This document shows positions 8,225-47,452 of a stretch of DNA of 64,000 nt, in pieces. The notes under the pieces were generated by a model. It was not told the DNA's origin. It saw only the letters and a list, made by a program, of their open reading frames with translations, and did not search any database. Numbering within the stretch: the stretch's first letter is position 1; the number at the start of each line of letters is the position of its first letter. The DNA comes from an uncultured Chlorobiaceae bacterium (GTDB lineage: Bacteria > Bacteroidota > Chlorobiia > Chlorobiales > Chlorobiaceae). Made by a program: the position numbers and the translations under genes. Location of the stretch: assembly GCA_903843305.1 (NCBI GenBank), contig CAIMPI010000031.1, forward strand, positions 1 through 64,000, written 5' to 3'.

Positions 8225-8320
8225 CAACCATTATTTTCGCAGGCAATGCAGAGCCATTGAAAAACAGGTAGCAAAACTGTATCTTGTGCCAAATGGGGTC
8301 ATCCCGCTTTTGACGTGATA

Positions 8321-8953: not shown

Positions 8954-8957
8954 TAGC

Positions 8958-9434
8958 ATGAAGCGGCTTGCGGCAAAAATTTTTTCCACCTGTTTCGGAA
9001 TTGGTTATTTTCCTGTGGCTCCCGGGACGGTGACGAGTATTGTGGCCGTTCTCTGCTACTCTTTCATTCCCATACTCCATTACCCGCCGCTTTTGCTCTC
9101 CCTTGTTGCGCTCTTCAGTGTTGTTGGCGTCTGGTCAGGAACGCTGATGGAGGAGGAGTGCGGGGAGGATCCCTCTATTGTAACGATAGATGAACTTGCC
9201 GGTCAGTGGCTTGCGCTGGCTTTTCTGCCTGAGGGATGGTTGTCTGTGCTGCTCTCGCTTGCCTTTTTCCGCTTTTTCGATATAGCAAAACCCGGGCCTG
9301 TCGATGCCGCTCAGCGTTTACCCGGAGGGTGGGGAATCATGGCTGATGATCTGCTTGCAGGGTTGTTTGCCAATCTTGCCGTACGGGGAGTGCTGCTTCT
9401 CTTTACCGCTTTTTACCTCTGGGTAGCAGTGTAA
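8958..9434 (+). CDS. pgpA: Phosphatidylglycerophosphatase A
   Basis: PgpA removes the phosphate from phosphatidylglycerol phosphate, completing phosphatidylglycerol synthesis in the inner membrane. Family hallmarks are the N-terminal GIGYFPVAPGTVTS, the central IVTIDELAGQW, and FFRFFDIAKPGP followed by GGWGIMADDLLAG, which holds acidic metal-binding residues. At 158 residues it has the usual length. It forms a pair with pgsA. Its 3' end overlaps the convergent dxs gene by 22 bases, so the two messages are partly antisense. Confidence 0.93.
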   Translation: MKRLAAKIFSTCFGIGYFPVAPGTVTSIVAVLCYSFIPILHYPPLLLSLVALFSVVGVWSGTLMEEECGEDPSIVTIDELAGQWLALAFLPEGWLSVLLSLAFFRFFDIAKPGPVDAAQRLPGGWGIMADDLLAGLFANLAVRGVLLLFTAFYLWVAV

Positions 9435-11314: not shown

Positions 11315-11736
11315 ATTCCTGAAATCTGCAGAAGAATAGTTCTCTCTGCGCGTGGGCCGTCGAGTTCAACGAAAAAAACTGACTGCCACTGACCCAGCAG
11401 CATCTTTCCTTCCGAAAAAGGAATCGTTTCCGAGCTGTTCATAAACAGTCCGAGAAGATGAGAGTGGGCATTATGTCGGCCATCAAGAGGGTTAAGGTTA
11501 TGCAGGTAGTTGCCATCTTTTGGAACAAGGCGCTTGAGAAAAGTCTCCATATCTTCAAGAAGCCGCTTTTCTTTTTCATTGAGATTAATAAACGCGGTTG
11601 TATGACGGCTTATGACAGTGATCTGCCCTCTATCCAGCCCTGTCGATGAGAGGAATGTCGTTACCTCTGCGGTAATGTCGATAATTTCAATCGGCCTTGT
11701 GGTTTCTACTGTGATGGTGTGTGTAAAGACTTGCAT
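11311..11736 (-). CDS. YjbQ/UPF0047 family protein
   Basis: A 141-residue protein of the UPF0047 family; some members have weak thiamine-phosphate synthase activity in complementation tests, but the real role is uncertain. Family motifs present include GQITVISRHTTAFINLNE, NAHSHLLGLFMNS and LGQWQSVFFVELDGPR. His residues in the first two segments form the likely metal or phosphate site. It sits directly upstream of dxs with a 4-base overlap. That is suggestive because dxs needs thiamine diphosphate, though this link is inference. Confidence 0.88.
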   Translation of the reverse strand: MQVFTHTITVETTRPIEIIDITAEVTTFLSSTGLDRGQITVISRHTTAFINLNEKEKRLLEDMETFLKRLVPKDGNYLHNLNPLDGRHNAHSHLLGLFMNSSETIPFSEGKMLLGQWQSVFFVELDGPRAERTILLQISGI

Positions 11737-29562: not shown

Positions 29563-31110
29563 TCATTGCCTGAGTTTTGCCATTATAATGCCGTATTTGC
29601 TGTAGAGTATGGCTGGATGGTCGAGTCTATCGAGCTGTTTGACCGTTGTCAGAACAATCTCACCCGGTTCCGGGTGCCGTTTTTCAACAAAAGACTCCGA
29701 ATATACTAAAAAAGAGGGGTTATAGATTTCCCACATTACGATTTTATACCCTTCTTTTTTAGCCAGAAAAGCGGCCTGTTTGATCGGTTCCTGGAGGAGT
29801 CTGCCCGCAAGGGGAGTAAGGTAAAAATTTATCAAACAAGAAAATATCACACCAGTAGCAATCAACTTCCCAGCGGCGGAAAAATGTGGCAGAAATTGTA
29901 TAGCGGTGACTCCGATAATGGCTGCTATAACAACGAAAAGATAAGTCTTTCCTGTAAGCTCTATTGCTCCAGCAAGTAGAGCTTGTATATAGTCATCATT
30001 TATTTGGTGTACTGCTGTTTGCAGAAGCATAGGGAGAAAGGCAAGAGCGGCAAGCAGGAGCAATGGCCATAGAGCCAGGCTTTCAGGGTGTTTTGTTAAC
30101 GGTAGTGCCCTGGCTATGAGAATAAAGAGAGGTGTATAGCCATAAATCATATAGTGAGGCAGTTTTGTGCCGGAGAAGGAAAAAAAGAGAAAGACAAAGC
30201 TGAACCAGATCAGCAGAAACCGGTTTGTTTTGTCGGAAAGCAGAGTTTTCAGTTTGAATAGTACCGTAAAGAAAAGGCCGGTAAAAGGCATAATCCCAAT
30301 CAAGATAACTGGAAGGTAATAGAAGAGGGAACCCGAGTGTCCCTCAAACGAAGTGTTAAAACGACTGATGTTATGCTTGAAGAAAAACTCATTGATAAAT
30401 GCCATGCCTTGGTCACGGTATTCCAGCAAATACCAGGGAAGGGCAATGATGAGAAAAAGGATGATTCCTGTAGGGTTTAGTATCATCCTGAGCCATTTTT
30501 TCAATCGTCCCTCTTGCAGGGAGAACAAAAAAGTGACTACAAACGGAATAATGATCGCTATCGGTCCTTTGGTAAGCATCCCAAGCCCTGACGAAGCAAA
30601 TGCAAAATGCAGTGCCTGTTTTGAACCTGTTTTATAATGGTGGAGCAAGGCAAACATAGTAATGGCCAGCAAATAATTAAGCACACCATCGGCTATCGCT
30701 GCTTTTGAAATAACAATCACCTGTAGTGAAAGCACCATTAGTGCTGCGGCAAAAAACGCCTGTCGGTTGCCGGACTCTTTGCGCACAAACAGAAAAATGG
30801 AAGTTGCCCAAGCGGTTCCAGCAAGTGCAGAGGGTAGACGGAAGGAAAACTCGTTGAGTCCGAAAAGCTTGACAGCGGCAACCTGCAGCCAGTAAATCAG
30901 TATAGGTTTATCAAAACGGGGTGCACCGTTCAGGTAGGTAGTCAGGTAATTTTTACTGACGATCATCTCTCGTGTTGCCTCACTGAACGCTCCTTCATCA
31001 ACATCAAAGAGTGGCACGGATCCAAGAGCCGCAAAAAAACTTAGCAGAATAAGAATTGCCAGTGCAGCCAGAAACCAGGCAGTTTCAGATTTTGATTGGT
31101 TCAGATGCAT
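29563..31110 (-). CDS. ArnT-like GT39 family glycosyltransferase
   Basis: A 515-residue multispan membrane protein of the dolichyl-phosphate-mannose protein mannosyltransferase (PMT/ArnT) family. It transfers a sugar from a polyprenyl-phosphate donor to a periplasmic acceptor such as lipid A or protein. FDVDEGAFSEATREM holds the catalytic acidic residues in the first periplasmic loop, and FDKPILIYWLQ follows. About eleven to twelve spans are visible. It overlaps the PAP2 gene by 26 bases and precedes the GT2 gene by 10, forming one operon. Confidence 0.92.
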   Translation of the reverse strand: MHLNQSKSETAWFLAALAILILLSFFAALGSVPLFDVDEGAFSEATREMIVSKNYLTTYLNGAPRFDKPILIYWLQVAAVKLFGLNEFSFRLPSALAGTAWATSIFLFVRKESGNRQAFFAAALMVLSLQVIVISKAAIADGVLNYLLAITMFALLHHYKTGSKQALHFAFASSGLGMLTKGPIAIIIPFVVTFLFSLQEGRLKKWLRMILNPTGIILFLIIALPWYLLEYRDQGMAFINEFFFKHNISRFNTSFEGHSGSLFYYLPVILIGIMPFTGLFFTVLFKLKTLLSDKTNRFLLIWFSFVFLFFSFSGTKLPHYMIYGYTPLFILIARALPLTKHPESLALWPLLLLAALAFLPMLLQTAVHQINDDYIQALLAGAIELTGKTYLFVVIAAIIGVTAIQFLPHFSAAGKLIATGVIFSCLINFYLTPLAGRLLQEPIKQAAFLAKKEGYKIVMWEIYNPSFLVYSESFVEKRHPEPGEIVLTTVKQLDRLDHPAILYSKYGIIMAKLRQ

Positions 31111-31708
31111 CTAATTTCGACTTGAAATAGTGGTTGTAAAGGAGAACTGTGGATACCATGCCCAGAAAAGAACCGGCAATGACATCACTGATATAGTGCT
31201 GAGCAAGAAAAATACGGCTGAATGCTACCATAAAGCCAGCAAAAAGCGAACTAATTCGCCAGCGAGGGTAAAGCGTGCCAATGAGCATAGCGACACTAAG
31301 CGCTGTTGCCGCATGGCCGGATGGAAAGGACGTCCATGCTTTTTCAAGCTGGAAAAAAGCAAATCCTTGGAGGTGTTCAGTAAAATAAAGATTTGGTCGT
31401 GCCCTCCCTGCGATAAATTTAGCAAGATCCGCAGTTAATCCTGATGCTGCAACGGTAGAGAAGAGGAAAAGGCCCGAATATGCTCTGTACTGATTCTTGT
31501 TGCGAAAAATTGCATACAGTAGCAAGCCTCCAGCAATATAGCAGAGTGAATCGCCAAACAGTGTTATCAACTCGAATAGTTCATAAAACCATGTTTTTCC
31601 GAGCGCATGCAACCACAATGCAGCCTGAATATCCGCAAAAAAGTAGCTGAGCATGCAGAGGCAGATCATTGTTAACGAGGCTATACCCCATTGAAGAGCG
31701 CTGTTCAT
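31085..31708 (-). CDS. PAP2 family membrane phosphatase
   Basis: A 207-residue integral membrane protein with the three-part PAP2 signature: KFIAGRARP (residues about 94-102), SFPSGHAATALS and SRIFLAQHYISDVIAG. These carry the Lys/Arg, the two His and the Asp of the phosphatase site facing the periplasm. Likely substrates are undecaprenyl pyrophosphate or phosphatidylglycerol phosphate. Being first in a four-gene sugar-lipid operon, recycling of the polyprenyl carrier is the more likely task. Confidence 0.92.
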   Translation of the reverse strand: MNSALQWGIASLTMICLCMLSYFFADIQAALWLHALGKTWFYELFELITLFGDSLCYIAGGLLLYAIFRNKNQYRAYSGLFLFSTVAASGLTADLAKFIAGRARPNLYFTEHLQGFAFFQLEKAWTSFPSGHAATALSVAMLIGTLYPRWRISSLFAGFMVAFSRIFLAQHYISDVIAGSFLGMVSTVLLYNHYFKSKLDASEPIKI

Positions 31709-34176: not shown

Positions 34177-34515
34177 ATGGACTTCAAGAAATTTCTTGAC
34201 AATCACATAAGGCTCCTGTCAGAAGGTGATGTAGGTGCATTAGTGGAGAGTGATTACCATGATGATGCGGTAATGATTCTGATGCTGGGCGATAAAGGGC
34301 AAGTCATTTCCGGTAAAGATGCTCTTAAAGTGCAATTTGACATGTATCTGAAAAACATTTATCGCGGCTTTATTTCTCTTCAGAAGTTAGTCACTTTTGA
34401 GGATTCAATATGTCTGGAAGCCAGGATAAATACCTCGGGTGGTGAAGCCAACGTTTGGGATGCACTCTATATGAAAAACGGAAAAATTTTTCGCCATTAT
34501 TCCGGCATGATGTGA
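34177..34515 (+). CDS. NTF2/SnoaL-like small protein (copy 1)
   Basis: A 112-residue cone-fold (NTF2-like) protein by pattern: an N-terminal helix (FLDNHIRLLSEGDVGALVE), the Tyr-His-Asp-Asp-Ala turn (DYHDDAVMI), GKDALKVQFDMYL, and a final strand pair GEANVWDALYMKNGKIFRHYSGMM. Such proteins bind or isomerise small hydrophobic molecules, or act as non-catalytic partners. It shares GEAN...GKI-x2-H-x2-GM with the protein at 38350, so the two are paralogues. It lies 28 bases before a DJ-1/PfpI gene. Confidence 0.77.
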   Translation: MDFKKFLDNHIRLLSEGDVGALVESDYHDDAVMILMLGDKGQVISGKDALKVQFDMYLKNIYRGFISLQKLVTFEDSICLEARINTSGGEANVWDALYMKNGKIFRHYSGMM

Positions 34516-34543
34516 TCAACAATATCAACGTAAAAGGATAGCC

Positions 34544-35293
34544 ATGAAAAAAGTATTGGTACTTGCATCAAATCTTGGACTTTGGGGTGAAGAACTTCAG
34601 GCTCCATGGGACGCGCTGAACAAGGCTGGTTTTAAGTTGACCCTTGCGACAGAAAAAGGAATTACTCCTCTTCCCTTACAGTTAAGTGTCGACAAAAATT
34701 TTGTTGATCCTGTTCAACAGTATAATGTAAATCCAGGAGAAGTTGTCGACCGGATTTTGGAAATACTTCAAACTGGTGAATGGGACAACCCGATAAAAAT
34801 CTCTGAGGCAAAGGCAGATGATTATGATGCAATGGTCATTGTCGGTGGGCCGGGATCTCCCCTTGATTTGGTTGGAAATGCAAAAGTACACCGGCTTCTT
34901 GAAGATTTCTATGCACAGGGAAAGATTATGGGAGCGTTGTGTTATGCTGTTGGAGCATTTGTTTGGGCGCGCAAACCGGAGGATGGCAAAAGCATCATTA
35001 CAGGCAAAACAATTGTTGCTCATCCAAAAGAGTGGGACTTCACCGATGAACTGCCCTATCCACTTTATAATGCCTCTCCCGAAAATCCCGGAACAGATCT
35101 TGTTACACCAGGATTTGCTTTTCCACTTCAGGTCATCGTGGAAGATGCGGTTGGGGATACAGGAAAAGTAATTGCCATACCATCAGCAAACAGGAAAAAT
35201 CCGGTTGTCCATTTTGATTTTCCATTTGTTTCGGCCCAATCAGTTGAGTCAAGTATTGCATTTGGCAATAAATTGGTTGAGGTTCTATCATAA
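34544..35293 (+). CDS. DJ-1/PfpI superfamily protein (copy 1)
   Basis: A 249-residue DJ-1/PfpI domain protein of the larger Hsp31-like kind. The nucleophile elbow is ALCYAVGAF with Cys133, and the supporting acidic residue is in WGEELQAPW (Glu16/17). VIVGGPGSP is the glycine turn. Family members act as glyoxalase III (2-oxoaldehyde to hydroxyacid), deglycase-like or amidase-like enzymes; substrate cannot be read here. It pairs with the NTF2-like gene just upstream, an arrangement repeated at 38350-39627. Confidence 0.87.
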   Translation: MKKVLVLASNLGLWGEELQAPWDALNKAGFKLTLATEKGITPLPLQLSVDKNFVDPVQQYNVNPGEVVDRILEILQTGEWDNPIKISEAKADDYDAMVIVGGPGSPLDLVGNAKVHRLLEDFYAQGKIMGALCYAVGAFVWARKPEDGKSIITGKTIVAHPKEWDFTDELPYPLYNASPENPGTDLVTPGFAFPLQVIVEDAVGDTGKVIAIPSANRKNPVVHFDFPFVSAQSVESSIAFGNKLVEVLS

Positions 35294-35368
35294 TAATAGC
35301 AGTTGTTCTTGTAACAATACCTGTCAGTCTGTAAGACAACATTTATAAGACTTAATAACGATAAGGCA

Positions 35369-36193
35369 ATGAATCCTGAAAAAAAATTGGTTATCAAAAT
35401 AATCGAGAGGGGACATGTGCATATTCATTGTTGCGCAACTCCTGATGATGGCGAAAGAGTCAATGCCCAGATTATAGAAACTGCGAATAAATTGGTTATT
35501 GTCGACACTACGTTGCTGAGGCCTTATGCCAAAGAGTTACGGGAATATGCAGATAGTCTTGGTAAGCCGATTGATCGTGTTTTTGTAACACACGCTCATC
35601 CTGATCACTGGTTTGGTCTTGAGTATTTTCAGGATTTGGATGTTTTTGCGTTTCTTGAAACAATTGAGGAGATTAAAAATTTTGCTCAGATCGCACTCGA
35701 TTTTCATAAAACTCAGCATGGCGATTTGGTTACCGACACGGTTTATTTGCCTGATAAACAAATTGTTGATAGTGAAGTTGTTATTGATGGAGTTCGGTTC
35801 AGGTTGTTTAAAATAGTAGCGGCTGAAGATCTTTTTATGTTGGCTCTTGATTTACCAGAAGAGAAGGCCTTTATAGCCCAGGATTTATTGTATAACAAGG
35901 TACATCTGTTTGTGGGCCAAAGATCTCTTGATGGAACGTTGTGTTTTGATGGGTGGATAGCTGCGCTGAAAAAATTTCAAAACGAAAATTATGAAGTTGT
36001 TCTGCCCGGTCATGGTGTCCCTGCTGATGCCTCTCTCTTTCAGGAAAATATCAGTAATCTTGAAAAGGTAAAAAGCATCCTGTTAGCTTCAACTGGGGAA
36101 AATTTTGTGCAAAATATTTTAGAAGCATTTCCGGATTATGGGCTCAGGTCGATGGTGGAAATGTCGGCATTTTTTCTTTTTCAAATGAAGTAA
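35369..36193 (+). CDS. Metallo-beta-lactamase-fold hydrolase
   Basis: A 274-residue MBL-fold protein. The metal motif HxHxDH is THAHPDHWFG at about residue 73-81. A later Asp is in FIAQDLLYNKVH and a final His in VLPGHGVPAD. These supply a dinuclear metal site, so it should be an active hydrolase, for example of a thioester or lactone. Glyoxalase II-like activity would fit the neighbouring DJ-1 and VOC proteins, but this is inference. No signal peptide is seen. Confidence 0.88.
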   Translation: MNPEKKLVIKIIERGHVHIHCCATPDDGERVNAQIIETANKLVIVDTTLLRPYAKELREYADSLGKPIDRVFVTHAHPDHWFGLEYFQDLDVFAFLETIEEIKNFAQIALDFHKTQHGDLVTDTVYLPDKQIVDSEVVIDGVRFRLFKIVAAEDLFMLALDLPEEKAFIAQDLLYNKVHLFVGQRSLDGTLCFDGWIAALKKFQNENYEVVLPGHGVPADASLFQENISNLEKVKSILLASTGENFVQNILEAFPDYGLRSMVEMSAFFLFQMK

Positions 36194-36214
36194 TTATTAC
36201 ATAGGGAGAATCAA

Positions 36215-37708
36215 ATGAAACGTTCTAAAAAACATGCCATTAAAAAACTGCAATCGTGCTGTTCAGCAATTGCGGCTACTGGCTTATTTATTTGTGGGGC
36301 TTCTGTTTACCCTGACACCGTTTTTGCCGCTGCTGATAATCCTAAGATTGATTATGGATTAACTGCCGGTTTTTCGACGATGTCTATAAACAATACGCAT
36401 TTTGGTTTGGGTCAGCTAAATGTAACGTATTACCCACAGGATATTGCCAGGTCAGAAGGCTATTTAGCTCCAAGTGCTAATTTATTATGGAAAACATCTG
36501 ATTCAGGAACTATATATGGAGGATTGCGAGCAGTTGGTTCTATGACCAGGGGAGATGGTGATAGTTGGGGTTTGACGGCGGATTTACATCATGATTACAC
36601 TCAAGGGCGATTTGTAATGGTCGGAGAAAGCATGTCATACCTCAACATAGATAAGCTATATCTGGGATGGAAGTCCGCTGATCTGATTCCTTTTCTGGAT
36701 AAAGATGGATTGGACATTAGTGTTGGTAAACAGAATTTCCAGCTTGGTGATGGTATGGTTCTGACCGATGGAAATGATGAGGCCAACCCACATAAAGGTA
36801 TTTATTGGCTTGATCCTCGCCAAGGCTGGAATAATTCAGCAATAGTGCGTATCAAATCTTTGCCATATCAGGCAGAGCTATTTTATCTTCAATCAAATAG
36901 TTATAGTTTAGATATTGCTTCCGGTGGTTATACTGATGATATTTTTACTGATAATATTGTAGGAGGAAATCTTGAATTTGTTAATGCCAAGCGCGGAAAG
37001 ATTGGCGTTTCATACTTTAATATTACGAGTTCAAACAATCCTGAACGTGACGGGTTGAGTGTTACTGGTTTACATGGTCGGGGAAATCCTCTTTCAACAC
37101 TCCAGAACCTTGAGCTGGCAGGTGAAGTGGATTTTCAGAAGAATAAAAACAGTGCTATAGACAGGGATGCTGTCGCATGGTTCGCTGAAGCAAAATACTT
37201 TATGCCAGAGTTGCCTTGGCACCCGACGCTTGGATACCGTTATTCATCATTTTCAGGTAATAAGCCGGGTACAAGTAAAAACGAAGGTTGGGATTACCTG
37301 TACAATGGCTCAACTGAACGCGGTTTTGGGTACTGGTATCAAGGGATTGTGGTCGGAACCTATGAAACTCGTTTGAGCAACCTTGATACACATTTTGTCA
37401 ACTTGACTCTGATGCCTCCTGTCAAGGGTAGCTGGATGAAGTTGCTCTATTATAATTATCAGTTTAATGAGCCCAGTACAGCTCAATCAATCCTCGGTAC
37501 ACCTATATCAAGCAGAAGCTTTGCTTCGGAATGGGATGTTATTCTTGGTTATTCTCCTACACCAAAGGTTGACTATATGGTAGTTTATGGAAATGCAAAA
37601 CCTTATCAGGGAGGTATTGATCGTGTTTCCGGAACTGCTAATAATACATATTATTACGATGATAAACACTCAACCATGCTTCAGTTTACAATGTTGTACC
37701 ATCTTTGA
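36215..37708 (+). CDS. Outer-membrane porin, alginate-export-like
   Basis: A 497-residue outer-membrane protein. It has an Arg/Lys-rich leader with hydrophobic core (residues 1-39, likely cleavage near VFA-AAD), then a long series of amphipathic strands with Gly, Tyr and Trp typical of an 16-18-strand barrel. ISVGKQNFQLGDGMVLTDG is reminiscent of the alginate export porin family. It ends FTMLYHL. A ribosome-binding site (gggag) precedes the ATG. As the only channel in the cluster it is the likely route for its substrate or product. Confidence 0.82.
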   Translation: MKRSKKHAIKKLQSCCSAIAATGLFICGASVYPDTVFAAADNPKIDYGLTAGFSTMSINNTHFGLGQLNVTYYPQDIARSEGYLAPSANLLWKTSDSGTIYGGLRAVGSMTRGDGDSWGLTADLHHDYTQGRFVMVGESMSYLNIDKLYLGWKSADLIPFLDKDGLDISVGKQNFQLGDGMVLTDGNDEANPHKGIYWLDPRQGWNNSAIVRIKSLPYQAELFYLQSNSYSLDIASGGYTDDIFTDNIVGGNLEFVNAKRGKIGVSYFNITSSNNPERDGLSVTGLHGRGNPLSTLQNLELAGEVDFQKNKNSAIDRDAVAWFAEAKYFMPELPWHPTLGYRYSSFSGNKPGTSKNEGWDYLYNGSTERGFGYWYQGIVVGTYETRLSNLDTHFVNLTLMPPVKGSWMKLLYYNYQFNEPSTAQSILGTPISSRSFASEWDVILGYSPTPKVDYMVVYGNAKPYQGGIDRVSGTANNTYYYDDKHSTMLQFTMLYHL

Positions 37709-37770
37709 TACAGCTCAAACTGATAGTAATAGTTTAGCTTCAAAAATACATTGATGTAATCGCTGAGAGT

Positions 37771-37803
37771 AAAGTCCCTGCAGCTTTGTTGCTGGGCTTT
37801 ATT
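37771..37803 (+). terminator. Weak terminator or attenuator after the porin
   Basis: An imperfect hairpin formed by aaagtccctgcag and gttgctgggcttt, followed by attca rather than a T-run. It sits in the 141-base gap between the porin and the next NTF2-like gene, the largest gap inside the cluster. It could reduce read-through or protect the mRNA end. Confidence 0.35.
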
Positions 37804-37849
37804 CACAAACAAGCAAGATTAATAACCAAAAACAATTTGGAGTAATCTA

Positions 37850-38287
37850 ATGGCAAAACCTTTATCTGAATCGGAAGTAGCAGATCTTGTAAAGATTTGG
37901 TACAAAAAGCTTGATGTTCATGCTTCCTTGCTGGAATTTTTACCCTTGCTTGGAGATGATACTCTTGAGATGACATTTCCTGAAGCAACACTTCATGGCT
38001 TGGTGGATTTTGAAAAATGGTATGAGAGAGTTATTCGAATCTTTTTTGATGAGGTGCATCTACTGAAGGAGGTAAAAATAAACCTTCAGGGCGATTCTGC
38101 TGAAGTTAATCTTATCGTTGAATGGCAAGCAAGTGTATGGAATCCTCCAGCAGCAAAGAGTGAAAGAATCAAGCTTGATGCTGATCAAGCCTGGGTTGTA
38201 CAACGATCTGAGAAATCAGGCGATCCTGTAATCGTCAAGTATGTCGTTAATGCGTTGAATTATCAGGAAGGTTCGGCGAAGTTATAA
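37850..38287 (+). CDS. NTF2-like protein (copy 2, divergent)
   Basis: A 145-residue protein with the NTF2/SnoaL-like order of elements: two N-terminal helices (DLVKIWYKKLD and ASLLEFLPLL), the DDTLEMTFPEATLHG strand turn, WYERVIRIFFDEVH, and three long strands (SAEVNLIVEWQASVW to VKYVVNALNYQ). It differs from the other two NTF2-like proteins of the cluster and lacks their GEAN/GKI-H-GM signature. Its function is unknown. It starts the second NTF2/NTF2/DJ-1 module. Confidence 0.75.
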   Translation: MAKPLSESEVADLVKIWYKKLDVHASLLEFLPLLGDDTLEMTFPEATLHGLVDFEKWYERVIRIFFDEVHLLKEVKINLQGDSAEVNLIVEWQASVWNPPAAKSERIKLDADQAWVVQRSEKSGDPVIVKYVVNALNYQEGSAKL

Positions 38288-38349
38288 ATGACGCTGCACA
38301 ATAGCAGCATTGCTGGAGATATCTTTTTAATACTATCAAGGGGAAAAGT

Positions 38350-38742
38350 ATGAAAAATGTTCCTGACAGCCCTATGGGCAAGATGTATAAAGCGCATATT
38401 CAGTTTATTTTAGACAAGAACATTGAAGCATTGCTTGATCAATATACTGACGACGCATTGCTGATTAGCAGCTTTATGAAAAAGCCTCTTATTTATAAGG
38501 GTCGGAATGAGTTGCGTGAGCATATGCAGGGCATTCTTGGTATTCAAAACCTTGAAACAGAAATAATATTCTGGTCAGAGACGGTTGAGCCGCAAACCCT
38601 CATGATTACAGAACAAATCACCATGCAAACTGCTGATGGTGAAGCCAACATGCGCTTCGCAGATAGTTGGGTGCTTCGTGATGGCAAGATTGCTATTCAT
38701 TTTGCCGGAATGGTACAATATCCTGATGGATCTCTTGCATGA
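38350..38742 (+). CDS. NTF2/SnoaL-like small protein (copy 3)
   Basis: A 130-residue NTF2-like protein: MYKAHIQFILDKNIEALLDQY helix, TDDALLISSF turn, GRNELREHMQGIL helix and the late GEANMRFADSWVLRDGKI, then HFAGMV. The GEAN...GKI-x2-H-x2-GM pattern is shared with the protein at 34177, so it is its paralogue. A ribosome-binding site (aagggga) precedes the ATG. A DJ-1/PfpI gene follows after 54 bases, as for the first copy. Confidence 0.78.
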   Translation: MKNVPDSPMGKMYKAHIQFILDKNIEALLDQYTDDALLISSFMKKPLIYKGRNELREHMQGILGIQNLETEIIFWSETVEPQTLMITEQITMQTADGEANMRFADSWVLRDGKIAIHFAGMVQYPDGSLA

Positions 38743-38796
38743 TTAAGTAAAATAAATCCTCCGTTTTTTATCAATAATTCCTAAAAGTAAATATTC

Positions 38797-39627
38797 ATGA
38801 ATAAGAAAAAAGTTCTGGCGATTCTCTCTGAATATGGATACTGGGGAATCGAATTGGTTGGCCCCTTGAATAAACTTGAAGCAGCGGGTTATACTGTTGA
38901 TTTTATGACTCCCAACGGTAAACCCGCAGATGCTCTTCCTCCAAGCTTTGACTCAACCTATGTTGATCCACCACTTGGTATCTGTGTAACAACAAAGCAG
39001 CACGAAAATGATGTGAAAGCCTTTATTGATAAAAATCGTACATCTGCCCCACTCTCGCTTAAATCCTACATTCCAGAAAGACCCTACTATTCGGCAGCTA
39101 ATTTTCTAAGAAATCTCGAACAATATTATACCAAGGTCAAAGAATCTGTTGAGTTTCTAACCAGTGAATATGACGCGTTGTTTGTTGTTGGCGGAAGTGG
39201 ACCAATTGTTGATTTAGTGAACAATCAAAGCCTCCACGAGTTGATCTTGGGATTTTACAGAAAAGATCAGCCAGTTGCAGCAATTTGTTATGGTGTTGCA
39301 GCTCTTGTCTTTGCAAGAGATTTCAATGAACGAAAGAGCATTATAAAAGGTAAACATGTTACCGGGCATTGTATCGAATATGATTATCACGATGGAACAG
39401 GGTTTCTTCACACCGACTTTAATATGGGTCCCCCACCGTATGTTCTTGAATATCTCTTGACCGATGCAGTGGGCCCTTTTGGCCAGTATCATGGTAATTT
39501 TGGAAAAGAAACTTCTGTGATAGTTGATTATCCGTTTATAACAGCACGTTCATTACAATGTTCTTATGAAATGGGCGACAAATTTGTGGACGTGTTAAAC
39601 AATGGACTCAAAAGATATGGCTGGTAA
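38797..39627 (+). CDS. DJ-1/PfpI superfamily protein (copy 2)
   Basis: A 276-residue paralogue of the DJ-1-like protein at 34544. Shared landmarks are the N-terminal YWGIELVGPL (Glu19), STYVDPP, VVGGSGPIVDLV and the nucleophile elbow AAICYGVAALVFAR with Cys164. A DYHDGTGFLHTDFN segment near residue 196 is unlike copy 1 and may shape the pocket. Its 3' end overlaps the ThDP enzyme gene by 11-26 bases, so the two are translationally coupled. Confidence 0.86.
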   Translation: MNKKKVLAILSEYGYWGIELVGPLNKLEAAGYTVDFMTPNGKPADALPPSFDSTYVDPPLGICVTTKQHENDVKAFIDKNRTSAPLSLKSYIPERPYYSAANFLRNLEQYYTKVKESVEFLTSEYDALFVVGGSGPIVDLVNNQSLHELILGFYRKDQPVAAICYGVAALVFARDFNERKSIIKGKHVTGHCIEYDYHDGTGFLHTDFNMGPPPYVLEYLLTDAVGPFGQYHGNFGKETSVIVDYPFITARSLQCSYEMGDKFVDVLNNGLKRYGW

Positions 39628-41323
39628 AACTGGAAATCAAAAGATTCTGGAGCAGTTTGTTGCCGACGGGTTTACCTTTATGTTCGGCAACCCAGGTACA
39701 GTAGAGCAAGGTTTTCTTGATGCGCTCGCAGATTATCCTCAACTACATTACATTCTTGCCTTGCAAGAGTCTGTTGCCGTAATGATGGCTGATGGGTATG
39801 CGCGAGCGACAAAACGACCGGCACTTGTACAACTGCACAGTAGTCCTGGTATTGGTAATGCTGTTGGTGCGCTTTATCAGGCAAAACGAGGGCATGCCCC
39901 TCTTGTATGTATTGGCGGCGATGCAGGAGTCAAATATCTCAATATGGATGCCCAGATGGCTGCCGATCTTACAGCTATCATGGAGCCTGTGACAAAATAT
40001 GCTACGGTTGTTTATGACAGGAATTCCGTACTACGCACCCTGCGTCGTGCAATTAAAATTGCGTCAACCCCTCCGATGGGGCCGGTATACGTCTGCCTGC
40101 CGCTTGATGTTCTGAGTCAAATCAATGATGAAGAGGTTTTTCCGACTCATATTCCTGATACAGCAACCATACCCGCTGATGACAAAATAGCGCTTTTTGC
40201 GAGGGAGTTGCTTGGTGCCGCTAAACCGGTTATTTTCATCGGTGACGGAGTCGCCTATTCTCATGCTGAAAACGAACTGACTCGGGTTGCTGAGCTTATT
40301 GGCGCTGAGGTCTATGGTGTCGATGTTGGTGATCTCAATATGGATACGACGCATCCACTCTATTGTGGAACTACTGGTCATATGTTTGGAGCCGCCAGCT
40401 TGCCTATAACCATCAAAGCTGATGTGCTTCTGATTGTTGGTACCTATATGCTGCCTGAGGTATTTCCTGAGCTGGGTAATGTTTACAACAGTAATGCACG
40501 TGTCCTTCATATCGACTTGAATGCCTACGAGATTGCGAAAAACCATCGGGTCGATTACAGCTCAGTGTCAGATCCAAAACTGACACTGACCGAATTAGCG
40601 CAAAAGCTTCAGCAGCTTATTACTCCTCAGTATCGGCAAGATGCAGAGAAACGCACCCGGGAAATTCAGGATAATAACAAGAAAAGTCGGACTCATCAGT
40701 TTGAGCTGGATAGTGCGAACCGTGAATCTGTTCCGATGTTTATGTCCAGATTCATGGAAGAGCTTGCTCCAAGACTTCCTGAAGATGCAGTTATTTTTGA
40801 TGAAGCCCTTACCAATAGTCCTGCTCTGACGAGATATTTCCCGCCTCGGAAAATTGGTTCTTATTTCAGTACTCGAGGAGGTTCTCTTGGTGTTGGTTTT
40901 CCAGGCGCTATCGGGTTGAAGCTTGCCAATCCTGACAAAGTTGTTATAGGGTTTTCAGGTGATGGAGGCTCTATGTACACCATCCAGGCTCTCTCTTCGG
41001 CCAAAAGGCATAAGATCGGGGCCAAGTTTATTGTTTGTAATAATGGCGCTTATCGTTTGTTGCAGGTGAATATAAAAGAGTACTGGAAAGAGCAGCAAAT
41101 CGAGAATCGGGAGATGCCGGTTCCATTCGATTTATCGGTTCCGGAAACAAGATTTGATCTGCTTGCCCAGTCTATGGGGGTGGATGCCGTGAGGGTTGAA
41201 ACAGTTGAAGATATACCAGGAGCAATTACCAGGATGCTTGCTGACGATAAGCCGTTCCTGATTGACTTGGTACTTGAGGGAGATACACATCCTCATCTGG
41301 TCAATGTTCGATGTGGGCAGTAA
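39602..41323 (+). CDS. ThDP-dependent decarboxylase (benzoylformate decarboxylase / acetolactate synthase-like)
   Basis: A 573-residue thiamine-diphosphate enzyme with the standard three domains. The catalytic Glu56 lies in LALQESVAVMMADGYAR. The ThDP-magnesium motif runs from GDGGSMY near residue 454 to the NN pair about 28 residues later (FIVCNNGAY). HSSPGIGNAVGAL resembles benzoylformate decarboxylase more than acetolactate synthase, and no regulatory subunit gene is nearby. It should act on a 2-oxoacid, either decarboxylating it or condensing it with an aldehyde. An ATG at 39617 is an alternative start. Confidence 0.88.
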   Translation: MDSKDMAGKTGNQKILEQFVADGFTFMFGNPGTVEQGFLDALADYPQLHYILALQESVAVMMADGYARATKRPALVQLHSSPGIGNAVGALYQAKRGHAPLVCIGGDAGVKYLNMDAQMAADLTAIMEPVTKYATVVYDRNSVLRTLRRAIKIASTPPMGPVYVCLPLDVLSQINDEEVFPTHIPDTATIPADDKIALFARELLGAAKPVIFIGDGVAYSHAENELTRVAELIGAEVYGVDVGDLNMDTTHPLYCGTTGHMFGAASLPITIKADVLLIVGTYMLPEVFPELGNVYNSNARVLHIDLNAYEIAKNHRVDYSSVSDPKLTLTELAQKLQQLITPQYRQDAEKRTREIQDNNKKSRTHQFELDSANRESVPMFMSRFMEELAPRLPEDAVIFDEALTNSPALTRYFPPRKIGSYFSTRGGSLGVGFPGAIGLKLANPDKVVIGFSGDGGSMYTIQALSSAKRHKIGAKFIVCNNGAYRLLQVNIKEYWKEQQIENREMPVPFDLSVPETRFDLLAQSMGVDAVRVETVEDIPGAITRMLADDKPFLIDLVLEGDTHPHLVNVRCGQ

Positions 41324-41380
41324 CACCGTGTAAACACAGCGAAATCTTCTCTAATTAACATTTTTAAAGGAAGATAATTT

Positions 41381-41947
41381 ATGAAACTAAAGGATAAAAA
41401 AATCGCAATTCTCATGGAGAGCGATTTTTACGAACCGGAAATCTTCTATTACCAGCGCAGATTTCTTGAAGAAGGGGCCGATCTGCGCCTTCTTACCAGG
41501 CTTTGGGGACAAAACTCATTGACGTTTAAAGGTCATGAGTATCATATCCCACTTGAGGTATCTGGAACTTTTGAGGGGATCAGTGATGAAGAACTTTCAA
41601 CGTATGCCGCAATCATTGTTCCGGCAGGCATGGTTTCCGACAGACTCCGTTATACTGATGATCTAAAGGTAGTTCCGCCTGCCTCGACTTTCATGAAGCG
41701 CGCGTTTGGAAATAAAAAAATCATCAAGGGGGTAATCTGTCATGGATTATGGCTGCTTGCTCCTGTACGGGAAGTTATTGCAGGCCGTAAACTTGTCTGT
41801 CACAACAACTTGTATAGTGATGCCAAGGCTTACGGTGCAGAGTTTATTGACCAGGATGTTGTTGTTGACCATGATTTGGTTACAGCGAGAACCGGTGGAC
41901 ATTGCCATCTTTTTGCAAGAAAGATTATTGATTTGATCCCCAATTAA
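41381..41947 (+). CDS. DJ-1/PfpI family protein (copy 3, short PfpI type)
   Basis: A 188-residue PfpI-like protein. The nucleophile elbow is GVICHGLWLLAP with Cys120-His121, as in PfpI, and the acidic partner is in SDFYEPEIFYY (Glu18/Glu20). AAIIVPAGMVSD is the glycine turn. VVVDHDLVTARTGGHCHLFARKI near the C-terminus matches the ending of the PfpI group. It is shorter than the other two and more likely a different activity within the same superfamily. Confidence 0.87.
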   Translation: MKLKDKKIAILMESDFYEPEIFYYQRRFLEEGADLRLLTRLWGQNSLTFKGHEYHIPLEVSGTFEGISDEELSTYAAIIVPAGMVSDRLRYTDDLKVVPPASTFMKRAFGNKKIIKGVICHGLWLLAPVREVIAGRKLVCHNNLYSDAKAYGAEFIDQDVVVDHDLVTARTGGHCHLFARKIIDLIPN

Positions 41948-41962
41948 TTAATCCGATCCATC

Positions 41963-42376
41963 ATGAAATTTGTTCATGTAGCACTTTCCTGCTCTGATCT
42001 GGAGAAAACCGAGAAGTTTTATAGTAAATATTTTGGGTTTAAAAGAGCAAGATATATCCCTCTTGGTGACGGCAATGCCATTGTTTTTATCAAATGTGGT
42101 GATTTTTATCTTGAGCTTTTCAGAGCCGAATCCCCAAGACCGATTCCACAGGCTGATAAAGATGGACAGAATTATCCCGGCTGGCGGCACATCGCTTTTC
42201 AGGTCGATAGTCTTGATGCATTTATTGCAGAGTTCAACAACGAGCTTGATATCTCTCTCGGGCCTCTCGATTTCAGCAGTTTTATCCCGAATTGGAAATC
42301 TGTATGGGTTAAAGACCCAGACGGAAACATCATTGAAATAAGTCAGGGTTACCAAGATGATTTAACCGGAGTTTGA
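41963..42376 (+). CDS. VOC-superfamily protein (glyoxalase/dioxygenase fold)
   Basis: A 137-residue vicinal-oxygen-chelate protein made of two beta-alpha-beta3 halves. MKFVHVALSCSDLEKTEKFY carries the first metal-binding His (residue 5); WRHIAFQVDSLDAF carries the second; VKDPDGNIIEISQ near the end carries the conserved Glu. A complete ligand set is therefore likely. Glyoxalase I is one possibility given the DJ-1 and MBL neighbours, but the family is catalytically diverse. Confidence 0.87.
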   Translation: MKFVHVALSCSDLEKTEKFYSKYFGFKRARYIPLGDGNAIVFIKCGDFYLELFRAESPRPIPQADKDGQNYPGWRHIAFQVDSLDAFIAEFNNELDISLGPLDFSSFIPNWKSVWVKDPDGNIIEISQGYQDDLTGV

Positions 42377-42378
42377 TT

Positions 42379-44475
42379 ATGGTACAAAAAAAAAATATTG
42401 TTATTGAAAGGGGTGCTGCTCATCCGCTTGGCGCTACACCTGATGCCAACGGAGTAAACTTTTCAATTTTTTCTGAAAACGCTTCAGGCATAGAGTTGTG
42501 CCTTTTCGACAGGCACGATGATTTTCATCCATTCCAGACCGTAAAGTTAGATCCCGGTATCAACCATACGTTCCATTTCTGGCATGTCTATATCAGGGGT
42601 TTAAAAGCTGGCACTCATTATGCCTATCGAGTCGATGGAGTTTATGCACCAGATCAGGGTCATTTATTCAACAGGAACAAGGTTGTAATAGATCCTTATG
42701 CTCGAGGTAATACCGATGAACTTTATGACAGGGGAGAGGCTTGTCATGATAGAGATAATATCACAACGTCAATGCGTAGCGTAGTCATTGATGAAAAAAA
42801 GTATGACTGGGAGGGGGATAAGCCGCTGAACACCCCTATGAAAGACAGCATTATTTATGAAATGCATGTTCGCGGATTTACTAAAGACGATTCAAGCGGC
42901 GTTAAACACTCCGGGACATTTCGTGGAGTCGTTGAAAAGATTCCTTATCTCAAAAAGCTTGGAGTTACAGCAGTCGAGCTCCTTCCTGTTTTTGAGTTTG
43001 ACACGAAGCAGGTACTGAAAACCATGCCTGATGGAACGGAGCTTAAGAACTATTGGGGGTATAGTACGGTAGGTTTTTTTGCTCCAGTAGGGAGGTACTG
43101 TTGTAAGCCAGAAGAGGGAGACCATCTCAACGAATTCCGTGATATGGTTAAGGCTTTCCATAAAGCAGGTATCGAAGTTATTCTTGATGTTGTTTTTAAT
43201 CACACCGACGAAGGAAACCATAAAGGGCCAGTACTCTGTTTTAAGGCGATAGACAATGCCATTTATTACCATCTGGTTGATGGTGATAAAAAGTATTACA
43301 TGGATTATACAGGGTGCGGTAATACCGTTAATTGTAATCACCCAATTGTTGAAAAATTTATTACGGACTGCCTTGCGTTTTGGGTTAACGTTATGCACGT
43401 CGATGGTTTCCGGTTCGATGAGGGTTCGGTGTTGAGTCGAGGAGAAGATGGTCGTCCTCTTGCTCATGCTCCAGTGATCTGGAATGTTGAGCTGATGGAT
43501 ACGTTTGTCAATACAAAACTGATTGCCGAGGCATGGGACGCTGCAGGTGTTTATCAGATCGGTTCATTTCCCGGCTACCGATGGGCAGAATGGAATGGTC
43601 GTTACCGTGATGATATCCGCAGATTTGTTAAAGGCGATGGCGGGATGGCAGCAACGGTAGCATCAAAGCTGTCGGGTTCAAGCGATATCTACCAGCATAG
43701 TCGGCACACTCCCTTGAATTCCATCAACTTTATTACCTGCCATGATGGATTTACCATGATGGATCTGGTGTCGTACAATGAAAAGCACAACTTTGCCAAC
43801 GGTGAGGATAATCGGGATGGCAATGATGGCAACGACAGTTGGAACCATGGAGTTGAAGGCGCAACCGATGATCCTGGCATTAACGAGTTCCGGAAGCGTG
43901 AAATAAAAAACTTTATCTCAATTCTTATGCTTTCCCAGGGCGTCCCCATGATCCTTGGTGGTGATGAATTCGGACGCACACAACAAGGCAACAACAATAC
44001 TTATTGTCAGGATAACAAGCTTAATTGGTTCGACTGGCAACTGACAGAAAAAAATAATGATCTCCTTCATTATTTTACAGAAATGATCAAGCTTCGCAGA
44101 TCATTATCCTCATTGAGACGCTATAGTTTTTACGATGGCAAAGCAATCAATAGCAGAGGAATGCGTGATATTGAATGGCATGGATGCAGGCTGCTTGCGC
44201 CGGGCTGGAATGATCCTGAATGCAGGGTGCTGGCATTCACTATTGCCTCTTTTGTTGAAAGCGAGCCTGATATACATGTTATGCTCAATATGAGTATGGA
44301 AAACCTTGACTTTGAAATTCCGCAAATTGACACTTTTGAGTGGTTGCGTTCAGCGGATACATCATTGCAATCTCCTCAGGATATTGTAGATATTCGAAAG
44401 GCAAATGTTATTGTCGAAAAGAGTTACAATGTTAAAGCCCATTCTTCTGTAATTTTAGTCTCAAAAGCGAGGTAA
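42379..44475 (+). CDS. glgX: Glycogen debranching enzyme GlgX
   Basis: GlgX hydrolyses alpha-1,6 branch points of limit-dextrin glycogen, releasing short maltodextrins. It has the N-terminal CBM48 (HPLGATPDANGVNFSIFSENAS), region I DVVFNHT, nucleophile Asp in GFRFDEGSVL, acid/base Glu in LIAEAWDAAG, and Asp in ITCHDGF. FGRTQQGNNNTYCQDN is characteristic of GlgX/isoamylase. At 698 residues it is full length. The ATG at 42379 starts 2 bases after the VOC gene stop. Confidence 0.95.
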   Translation: MVQKKNIVIERGAAHPLGATPDANGVNFSIFSENASGIELCLFDRHDDFHPFQTVKLDPGINHTFHFWHVYIRGLKAGTHYAYRVDGVYAPDQGHLFNRNKVVIDPYARGNTDELYDRGEACHDRDNITTSMRSVVIDEKKYDWEGDKPLNTPMKDSIIYEMHVRGFTKDDSSGVKHSGTFRGVVEKIPYLKKLGVTAVELLPVFEFDTKQVLKTMPDGTELKNYWGYSTVGFFAPVGRYCCKPEEGDHLNEFRDMVKAFHKAGIEVILDVVFNHTDEGNHKGPVLCFKAIDNAIYYHLVDGDKKYYMDYTGCGNTVNCNHPIVEKFITDCLAFWVNVMHVDGFRFDEGSVLSRGEDGRPLAHAPVIWNVELMDTFVNTKLIAEAWDAAGVYQIGSFPGYRWAEWNGRYRDDIRRFVKGDGGMAATVASKLSGSSDIYQHSRHTPLNSINFITCHDGFTMMDLVSYNEKHNFANGEDNRDGNDGNDSWNHGVEGATDDPGINEFRKREIKNFISILMLSQGVPMILGGDEFGRTQQGNNNTYCQDNKLNWFDWQLTEKNNDLLHYFTEMIKLRRSLSSLRRYSFYDGKAINSRGMRDIEWHGCRLLAPGWNDPECRVLAFTIASFVESEPDIHVMLNMSMENLDFEIPQIDTFEWLRSADTSLQSPQDIVDIRKANVIVEKSYNVKAHSSVILVSKAR

Positions 44476-44478
44476 ACA

Positions 44479-46647
44479 ATGGAAAAAAACAAATTTGAGT
44501 TTACATTTTCTGATACGATTCAGGGATATGTAACCCATTTCGATTGGGATAAGCAGATTTTTTGTCTTGACACTTCAGATGGAAGAACTTTCGAAGTCAA
44601 ACTCGCTGCGAATATTTATGCTGAATTAGTCAGAAATCTCGGTGAGGCGTTTATTGACTGTACAGGTCAGATAAAGGATATGCTTGCCCCTGGCAGATTT
44701 CTCTATGTTTACGGAGTCTTCTTTCCTGAAGATGAAGTCAAGTTTGAAGCCAAGCATTTAGTATTTCTCGGTAAGGATGAACAAGAGTTTCGTTTTGAGA
44801 AACAGGACTGGTGGATCAAGCAGATTCGTCAACTCGGTGACTTTTATCTTAAAGCCCAGTTTCCTGATGGTGATGTTGACTACCGTAAATACAAAACCAA
44901 CCTTTCACTTGAGGGAGAACAAACTGGTAATTTCCGTCAGGAAACTGATACCATGTCACGTCTTGTCTATGGTTTTGCAACAGCTTACCTTTTGACTGGC
45001 GATGATCGATATCTTGAAGGCGCAGAAAAAGGTACGGTCTATTTACGTGAGCACATGCGCTGCAAGGATACCAGTGAAAACATCACTTACTGGTACCATG
45101 GTATTGATGTCAAAGGAAAACACGAACGGAAGATTTTTGCTTCAGAATTCGGTGATGACTATGATGCCATCCCGGCCTATGAGCAGATTTATGCGCTTGC
45201 TGGCCCGACACAGACATACCGAGTAACCGGCGATCCCGAGATTGCGAGCGATATTGATATGACGCTTAATCTTTTTGACAAGTACTTTTATGATCGGCAA
45301 CTTGGCGGTTATTTCTCACATATTGATCCAGTGACCTTCGATCCAAACGCAGAATCTCTTGTGGGCAATCGTGGACGCAAGAACTGGAACAGTGTCGGTG
45401 ACCATGCGCCAGCTTACCTGATTAATGCCTATCTTGCCACAGGTGACGAGCGTCTGAAAAAGATGCTTGTCAACACGGCCGATACTATCACAGAGCATTT
45501 TCCTGACTATGAGCACAGTGCTTTCGTACAGGAAAAGTTCCATGCTAATTGGGAACATGATTCCACCCATGGCTGGCAGCAGAATCGGGGTGTTGTAGGT
45601 CATAATCTGAAAATTGCCTGGAACTTGACTCGTATCAACAGTGTTGAAGGTCTTGAGCCAGAAAAAAGTGCAGCTTACATGGAATTTGCCCACAAAATCG
45701 CAGCTCTTATGCCTGAACATGGTTGTGACCGGCAACGTGGCGGCTGGTACGATGTTGTTGAAAGAACTCTTGAAGACGGCCAGAAATTCCACCGGTATGC
45801 ATGGCATGACCGTAAAGCATGGTGGCAGCAGGAACAGGGAATACTTGCCTATCTTATTCTTTTTGGCACAACTGGCAAAAAAGAGTATCTCAAGCACGCC
45901 AGAGAGTCCAGCGCTTTTTACAGCGCATGGTTCCTTGATCAGGACAGCGGCGGGATATATTTTAACGTATTGGCTACTGGTATTCCATATTTGCTGGGTA
46001 CTGAAAGGCTCAAGGGCAGTCACAGCATGAGTGGTTATCACTCATTTGAACTGGCCTATCTTGCTACTGTCTACCAGAACTTGCTGATTACCAAACAGCA
46101 CCTTGACCTCTATTTTAAACCATATCCTAATGGCTTTAAGGACAACATTCTTCGTGTTGCCCCTGACATTCTCCCTGCAGGATGTGTCAAGATTGAAACT
46201 GTATGGATCGATGGAAAGGAGTATCAGGATTTTGATGCTGATAATCTTACGGTAAAGCTTCCAGAAACTCAAAATCGTGTTAAAGTTCAGGTTCGCCTTG
46301 TTCCGGTTGGCAGTGTCGAACATTTCACGATGACTGTTGATCAGGATGGTGACATTCTCAAATTGACACTTTCAGGTGAACTGGATCATGTGGCAATTCA
46401 CTCATTCAGAAAAAATCTTGTAGAGATTGCCTCTAAAAATCCCGCCAAAGTAGCTTTTGATATGACAGCGCTTCAGTCCCTCGTTGAAGAAGCAGTACGC
46501 ACAATAATATTCGAGAAGCAGAAAATGAATATTGATTGTGACGTCTATATTTGCGGAGCAAATGAAGAGGTTAAGACGTTCTTTGATCGTGAAGAGCTTG
46601 CTGAGGAGGTTGTTTTACTTGATACTTACGATAAGTCAAAAATGTAG
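44479..46647 (+). CDS. AGE-family epimerase/isomerase fused to a C-terminal STAS domain
   Basis: A 722-residue three-part protein. Residues 1-105 form a beta-rich domain (IQGYVTHFDWDKQIFCLDT). Residues about 110-545 are an AGE (N-acyl-glucosamine 2-epimerase/cellobiose epimerase) alpha/alpha-barrel, with GHNLKIAW, WHDRKAWWQQEQG and MSGYHSFELAYL holding the typical His/Glu residues. Residues about 615-722 are a STAS domain aligning with SpoIIAA through the SGELDH motif. At the SpoIIAA phosphorylation position the usual Asp-Ser is replaced by Val-Glu (669-670). It begins 3 bases after glgX stop. The epimerase substrate is unknown. Confidence 0.86.
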   Translation: MEKNKFEFTFSDTIQGYVTHFDWDKQIFCLDTSDGRTFEVKLAANIYAELVRNLGEAFIDCTGQIKDMLAPGRFLYVYGVFFPEDEVKFEAKHLVFLGKDEQEFRFEKQDWWIKQIRQLGDFYLKAQFPDGDVDYRKYKTNLSLEGEQTGNFRQETDTMSRLVYGFATAYLLTGDDRYLEGAEKGTVYLREHMRCKDTSENITYWYHGIDVKGKHERKIFASEFGDDYDAIPAYEQIYALAGPTQTYRVTGDPEIASDIDMTLNLFDKYFYDRQLGGYFSHIDPVTFDPNAESLVGNRGRKNWNSVGDHAPAYLINAYLATGDERLKKMLVNTADTITEHFPDYEHSAFVQEKFHANWEHDSTHGWQQNRGVVGHNLKIAWNLTRINSVEGLEPEKSAAYMEFAHKIAALMPEHGCDRQRGGWYDVVERTLEDGQKFHRYAWHDRKAWWQQEQGILAYLILFGTTGKKEYLKHARESSAFYSAWFLDQDSGGIYFNVLATGIPYLLGTERLKGSHSMSGYHSFELAYLATVYQNLLITKQHLDLYFKPYPNGFKDNILRVAPDILPAGCVKIETVWIDGKEYQDFDADNLTVKLPETQNRVKVQVRLVPVGSVEHFTMTVDQDGDILKLTLSGELDHVAIHSFRKNLVEIASKNPAKVAFDMTALQSLVEEAVRTIIFEKQKMNIDCDVYICGANEEVKTFFDREELAEEVVLLDTYDKSKM

Positions 46648-46678: not shown

Positions 46679-47452
46679 ATGACAGATGTATTGTTTCTTG
46701 TCAGTGTAACAGGTTTAGTAATGGCTGTTTCGGTGTTATGCCTTCTGATCATTAGAAAAGTGTATGGGCATTCATTGATGGCTAAGCATAATGATGTTGC
46801 CGGGTTTATTTATGCGGTAATTGGAGTTATTTATGCTGTTTTACTTGCATTTGTTGTAATTGTGGAGTGGGAGATGTTTCGGGACGCCGATGGCAAAGTT
46901 CAGGAAGAGGTTCAGTGTATGGCCTCGGTGTTCCGTGACGTTGAGGTGTTCGATGAACCACAGAAATCATTAGTCGCGAAGGAAATTGTAAACTATACCA
47001 ATATCGTGATCAATGAAGAGTGGGCATTGATGGCTAAAGAGGAAGCAAGTGAAAAGGCGGTGAAATCGATCAGGCGTATTTTTACCCTGGTAACAGAAAT
47101 CAACCCCGCAAATGAGCATCAAAAAATTTGGTATCAGGAAATTGTCACCAGGCTTAATAACTTTCATAACGCACGAAACCATAGAGTGCAAGCAGCCAAG
47201 GAAAGTATTCCTGACTTCATGTGGAGTATAATGATTGTCGGTGCCGTAATTACCATAGGTTTCAGTTTTCTCTTTGGTACAGAGAATTTATGGGCACAAT
47301 CTTTTATGGTTGCGTCACTTGCAGGAATAATTACTCTTGTACTTCTTTTGATTGTTGCTCTTGATCATCCCTATGCAGGTATCATCATTGTAAAACCAGA
47401 AGCCTTTGTGGATCAGCTCGTTCGTTTTAAGGACTTTCTTGTAACGCAATAA
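46679..47452 (+). CDS. DUF4239-like membrane protein
   Basis: A 257-residue integral membrane protein with two N-terminal spans (VLFLVSVTGLVMAVSVLCLLII and FIYAVIGVIYAVLLAFVVIV), a cytoplasmic or periplasmic helical middle of about 120 residues, and two C-terminal spans. DVAGFIYAVIGVIYAVLLAF with a following EWEMFRDAD is the hallmark of the DUF4239/bestrophin-like family. It is the last gene of the cluster, 31 bases after the AGE-STAS gene. No function is established. Confidence 0.83.
   Translation: MTDVLFLVSVTGLVMAVSVLCLLIIRKVYGHSLMAKHNDVAGFIYAVIGVIYAVLLAFVVIVEWEMFRDADGKVQEEVQCMASVFRDVEVFDEPQKSLVAKEIVNYTNIVINEEWALMAKEEASEKAVKSIRRIFTLVTEINPANEHQKIWYQEIVTRLNNFHNARNHRVQAAKESIPDFMWSIMIVGAVITIGFSFLFGTENLWAQSFMVASLAGIITLVLLLIVALDHPYAGIIIVKPEAFVDQLVRFKDFLVTQ

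Follow-up and report, generated by a model that had tools for sequence, protein, structure and literature searches.

The window, a stretch of 64,000 nucleotides from an uncultured Chlorobiaceae bacterium, encodes on its forward strand a protein of 722 residues (44479..46647, + strand, ATG start) in which an AGE-fold enzyme is fused to a C-terminal STAS domain. Full-length relatives of this AGE-STAS protein, 56-75% identical, occur in many phyla. The reading frame starts 3 nt past the stop codon of glgX (42373..44475, + strand), which encodes a glycogen debranching enzyme (TIGR02100, 743 bits; cut-off, 641). A gene for a bestrophin-like membrane protein (46679..47452, + strand; PF14023, E = 1.4e-60) lies directly downstream and is found in the equivalent place in only some relatives (loci L004-L006, L020 and L021). 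Further upstream, a gene for a DJ-1/PfpI family protein (41381..41947, + strand; PF01965, 65 bits) lies where the icfG cluster of Synechocystis has slr1854; a DJ-1 gene is also found upstream in the split loci described below. The segment upstream of glgX and the fusion gene (34177-42376) contains repeated gene kinds (SnoaL-like, ThiJ/PfpI-like, TPP-dependent decarboxylase-like and VOC). Its gene clusters recur beside AGE-STAS genes in proteobacteria (L008, L009, L015, L016, L018 and L019) and some Nostoc (L032 and L035). This recurrence suggests joint transfer as a metabolic island.

The original prediction of an AGE-family enzyme with a STAS tail is borne out by Pfam matches to both parts and by an AlphaFold2 model built from 41 sequences (mean pLDDT, 86.7; pTM, 0.84). 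Residues 141-492 match PF07221 (GlcNAc_2-epim) with an E value of 2.7e-16, above the curated cut-off. In the model, residues 101-542 (44779..46104, + strand) adopt the (α/α) barrel of the AGE superfamily; Z scores for this region are 31-38 against superfamily members such as mannose isomerase (5x32), glucose 2-epimerase (8h1k) and cellobiose 2-epimerase, the best match being 5x32 (Z = 37.6, r.m.s. deviation of 2.4 for 379 residues). Unlike other members of the superfamily, AGE-STAS has additional N- and C-terminal domains. The N-terminal domain (residues 1-100; 44479..44778, + strand) is β-rich, with modelled strands between residues 13 and 96, and is also present in separate and STAS-less relatives (aligned in L083, L077, L081 and L089). 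The barrel is followed by a β region (residues 543-612; 46105..46314, + strand; modelled strands 542-609) that is conserved in the split copies, whose enzymes end in its vicinity.

Known epimerases rely on catalytic active-site residues that include the glutamate of a GHxxE motif. His309 and His375 are invariant and are shared with the AGE superfamily. However, the GHxxE glutamate is replaced by Lys378, which aligns with the glutamate of 8h1k and 8bry and is invariant in 41 aligned sequences, and the glutamate three residues past the first histidine is replaced by Ala312. The equivalog model for N-acyl-D-glucosamine 2-epimerase (NF052547), an enzyme defined in part by the glutamate that is Lys378 here, gave only 20.2 bits against a cut-off of 600. 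The AGE fold is clear, but the active site departs from that of a standard epimerase, and for the putative AGE-STAS enzyme the label 'epimerase' should be used with care. Other Chlorobiaceae (L086-L089) have a STAS-less relative, 42-44% identical, that adjoins a transporter-like gene and has no glgX in its 1.5 kb flanks; the copy in L089 has an apparent signal peptide. In L086 this gene adjoins PAP2 and glycosyltransferase genes, look-alikes of which are located at 29563-31708 of the window.

The STAS domain comprises residues 614-722 (46318..46644, + strand). Residues 619-716 match PF01740 with 43 bits, and a profile search with the tail alone raised this to 48 bits (cut-off, 22.6). The β/α order of a STAS domain is present in the model. 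The fold-match list of the whole model is filled by the large domain and contains no STAS structures. SpoIIAA (1tid) was the only single-sequence match among solved structures (residues 615-708, E = 0.006), and this alignment includes the SGELDH motif (residues 632-637), as had been claimed. A chance match is ruled out by the Pfam score, the 1tid alignment, the model and a profile match to the SpoIIAA structures 1auz, 1th8 and 1tid. The likeness to SpoIIAA and RsbV extends to the SGELD motif and to the phosphosite: V669-E670-E671-A672 align without gaps with D-A-S-G of 1tid, and thus, as the original prediction stated, a glutamate occupies the place of the phosphorylated serine. The aligned 1tid sequence has alanine at position 58; the wild-type SpoIIAA residues at the site are D57-S58-S59-G60. 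In the model, helix 670-680 starts with Glu670 (codon 46486..46488, + strand), the equivalent of Ser58. Unlike SpoIIAA and RsbV, the protein encoded in the window has no phosphorylatable residue at the site and no adjacent kinase or sigma factor, and is fused to an enzyme. The SpoIIAA/RsbV family models stayed below their cut-offs (TIGR00377, 37.6 against 53.45 bits; TIGR02886, 19.9 against 114.75 bits).

Glu670 is not a sequencing error, because every genus copy read (L142-L146 and the window) has the identical E670-E671, and because in the genus purifying selection acts on both domains. The dN/dS value is 0.056 for the enzyme and 0.18 for the STAS domain, so that selection on the latter is about three times weaker. 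Past the phosphosite lies a conserved helix motif, R674-x-[LI]-x-F678-x-x-Q681-K682 (46498..46524, + strand). Across 74 fused STAS sequences R674 is invariant, as is G633, and F678, Q681 and K682 are present in 91%, 86% and 93%, respectively; R674 differs in three more divergent cyanobacterial fusions (L137-L139). The motif also occurs in the separate STAS-2 proteins described below.

AGE-STAS is a widespread family. Relatives are encoded by 577 candidate stretches of species genomes, and the fusion is present in 73 of the 80 nearest relatives; together with the window these form the 74 fused sequences analysed here, a set of nearest relatives and not a random sample. Their hosts include cyanobacteria, proteobacteria, planctomycetes, Chloroflexi, actinobacteria and Paenibacillus, among others. 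The earlier statement that AGE proteins normally lack STAS domains therefore needs a limit, as this subfamily consists largely of AGE-STAS fusions. Within the window's genus the gene is sporadic, being found in six of 61 genomes and in one of these as a fragment at a contig end. We found no paper describing the fusion in the open-licence literature.

The other seven of the 80 loci encode an enzyme of about 607 residues that stops before the STAS domain. The gene order in these split loci is AGE enzyme, small STAS (STAS-1), glgX and second small STAS (STAS-2). Operons with enzyme and STAS as separate genes, in the order AGE/STAS-1/GlgX/STAS-2/phosphatase/kinase, are found in many cyanobacteria and in a handful of other bacteria. 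In Synechocystis salina (L083), genes for a Cache-HAMP-SpoIIE phosphatase and an RsbW-like kinase are located downstream, and DJ-1, CMD and slr1852-like genes upstream. Gene order and annotation identify the split locus as the icfG cluster of Synechocystis (slr1852-slr1862), which encodes the AGE protein Slr1855, Slr1856 (STAS-1), GlgX1, Slr1859 (STAS-2), the phosphatase IcfG and the kinase Slr1861; its members are named in PMC8670252 and PMC12329169. Slr1861 acts as a kinase on both Slr1856 and Slr1859, the phosphatase activity of IcfG extends to Slr1856 and not to Slr1859, and mutants of the icfG operon have carbon-use defects (PMC12329169). Phosphorylation of Slr1856 and Slr1859 increases in the dark (PMC7466104).

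Like the icfG cluster, the window locus brings together an enzyme of the same subfamily, a STAS domain of the Slr1859 type, glgX and a DJ-1 gene. Unlike in the icfG cluster, enzyme and STAS are one protein, glgX precedes the AGE-STAS gene and is of another subfamily, and STAS-1, a SpoIIE-type phosphatase and an RsbW-type kinase are absent from the locus. What is new is this fused, switch-less branch of icfG-type modules; the modules themselves are already known. One cyanobacterial genome (G350, contigs C208 and C72, loci L126 and L139) holds both a split copy, with kinase and phosphatase, and a fused copy. In another split locus (L131 of genome G414, about 7284-11392) the two parts of the enzyme gene are separated by about 2.2 kb of DNA that may have been inserted.

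To look for switch genes in the loci, we used three queries: the catalytic domain of IcfG, an Slr1861-like kinase and the RsbW-like kinase of the window's own genome. A second set of loci was drawn independently from cyanobacterial genomes, with a single genome added from the phylum group to which the window belongs. A kinase is encoded within the stretch in 19 of 26 split loci (5/7 in the first set, 14/19 in the second) and a phosphatase in 4/7 and 12/19; these are low estimates, because contig borders cut off several of the split stretches and the 19 include a fragment (L140) and a distant relative (L132). Neither gene was found in any fused locus (0/73 in the first set, 0/7 in the second, 0/81 with the window), with the proviso that very divergent kinases could escape these queries. 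The window was counted from whole-genome searches, which gave kinase-like matches only on other contigs and no SpoIIE-type phosphatase. STAS-1 is confined to split loci, and no second STAS gene was found near the fused loci examined.

The STAS domain might nevertheless still switch with an RsbW-like kinase encoded elsewhere in the genome; as a permanent competitor or sink, it would link that kinase to a metabolic enzyme. The original prediction suggested looking for such partners. The genome has one clear RsbW-like kinase (contig C15, 75 bits) and, also on C15, an RsbV-like STAS protein of 195 residues with an acidic repetitive tail and serine at the site; a third protein, a SulP-type transporter, contains a STAS domain. 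The RsbV-like gene (L002, 1477-2064) and the kinase gene (L114, 1486-1893) are about 16 kb apart on this contig of genome G000. However, the whole-genome search found no SpoIIE-type phosphatase, and a glutamate at the site should weaken kinase binding. Moreover, 58 of the 61 genus genomes contain the kinase and six the AGE-STAS gene, so the kinase is not tied to this gene. A partner in trans is therefore improbable in our estimation. Whole-genome phosphatase counts are uninformative, nearly all relatives having some.

The phosphosite behaves very differently in separate and fused proteins. Serine is found in all eight STAS-1 and all six STAS-2 separate proteins of the first set and in every separate copy of the second, bringing the STAS-2 total to 22/22. 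A survey of the 74 fused sequences revealed nine different residues: S (23), T (14), A (10), P (9), K (6), E (5), D (4), R (2) and N (1). Serine or threonine is thus retained in 37 of 74, and glutamate is not general. Mapped onto the enzyme tree, built without the STAS columns, the distinction between S/T and other residues requires at least 11 changes, or 12 losses if S/T is ancestral and never regained. Within the fused clade the phosphosite varies more than 64% of STAS positions, while G633, R674, F678, Q681 and K682 are conserved. Given the diversity of residues, the many changes and the variability of the site, Glu670 is one of many outcomes at this position.

The original prediction read the glutamate as a phosphomimetic lock. 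With such a lock, Glu670 would hold the STAS domain in a state like the phosphorylated one, so that it would never bind its kinase or anti-sigma factor and would give one fixed output. Glutamate is indeed fixed in the genus, the site is also acidic in some cyanobacteria, in Planctomycetes and in Paenibacillus, and a Ser-to-Asp variant of the related Ssr1600 loses binding to Slr1861 (PMC12329169). The survey tells against this reading: the residue is acidic in only nine of the 74 fused sequences, proline, alanine, lysine and arginine together being three times commoner, and a position that varies more than most of its domain accepts these residues as readily as Glu or Asp. We regard a phosphomimetic lock as very improbable.

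A tree calculated from 89 STAS domains unites the fused ones (98/98), groups them in turn with the Slr1859-type STAS-2 (100/98) and sets them apart from the Slr1856 type. The fused domain is thus placed by phylogeny with STAS-2. Gene order had led us to expect descent from the AGE-adjacent STAS gene (Slr1856 type), which the tree rules out. A model of a lone STAS-2 protein made without an alignment was poor (pLDDT, 62) and was left out of the analysis. Since the STAS domain is a fused version of an icfG operon protein of the Slr1859 type, its historical link to a partner-switching network is real. It may also scaffold the enzyme to such a network, as the original prediction suggested, but near the fused loci examined there is no switch kinase, phosphatase or second STAS.

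The direction of the event depends on the tree consulted. The split copies are a single group (84) in the enzyme tree; what divides the fused ones is only the point at which the distant outgroup attaches. Rooted on STAS-less relatives, the AGE tree nests the split form inside the fused forms, albeit with a very long outgroup branch; the STAS tree rooted on STAS-1 points in the opposite direction. Because AU tests rejected neither all fused copies as one clade (p = 0.33) nor STAS-2 as one clade (p = 0.35), a single event, fusion or fission, would be enough in either direction. Should fission have come first, 'loss' of the switch should read 'gain'. The AGE rooting favours the idea that STAS was originally a ligand-sensing or self-assembly domain, never phospho-switched in this lineage, and that the switched separate form arose by later fission. 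Given the long outgroup branch, the alternative that was not rejected and the contrary STAS tree, we consider this rather unlikely.

A full-length glgX gene lies near 68 of the 74 fused genes, and AGE, GlgX and STAS distances run parallel (r = 0.78, 0.85 and 0.69). This linkage supports a role of AGE-STAS in glycogen or maltodextrin metabolism. Against a Synechocystis-type GlgX query, fused loci score about 540-720 bits and split loci 1030-1720 bits; by these scores the two kinds of locus contain clearly different GlgX subfamilies, which counts against the explanation that follows.

The explanation we favour, with modest confidence, is that fusion made a phospho-switched contact permanent and that the STAS domain survives as the docking module of an enzyme linked to GlgX. 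AGE-STAS would then be a permanently coupled combination of an Slr1855-like AGE-fold enzyme and an Slr1859-like STAS domain of an icfG-type operon. In the separate form, a STAS protein with a strictly conserved serine is encoded beside a kinase and a SpoIIE-type phosphatase, so that its contacts would be switchable; in the split operon, STAS-2 would dock on the enzyme and phosphorylation would switch this contact. In the fused form docking would be permanent and the switch genes superfluous, accounting for the disappearance of the kinase, the phosphatase and the other STAS from the locus. The serine would be freed from constraint and replaced in many ways, in the Chlorobium lineage by glutamate. 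Because serine or threonine persists in half of the fused copies, a kinase from another locus may still phosphorylate some of them.

Purifying selection and the conservation of R674 and the F-x-x-Q-K helix argue that the fused STAS domain was retained as a module. We envisage phosphorylation-independent docking or assembly, with the enzyme's own assembly or GlgX as the most likely object, in glycogen-related metabolism. Of the functions put forward in the original prediction, use of the STAS fold for assembly, taken as assembly or docking, fits best.

The fusion can be read as a 'Rosetta stone': the direct partner of Slr1859-type STAS proteins would be the neighbouring AGE-fold enzyme and, by way of it, GlgX and glycogen. 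Being encoded together and sometimes fused, Slr1859 and Slr1855 are predicted to bind each other. The targets of Slr1856 and Slr1859 are given as unknown (PMC12329169), and the fusion hints at a partner for Slr1859 in cyanobacteria. We tentatively raise the possibility that STAS proteins of the Slr1859 type serve a metabolic enzyme (Slr1855, with GlgX) as switchable subunits, instead of or besides being sigma-factor regulators, and that AGE-STAS is its natural constitutive version, the switch having become dispensable once docking was permanent. If so, a regulator of partner switching would have become a built-in part of an enzyme, and the repeated decay of its phosphosite would be the trace of this change.
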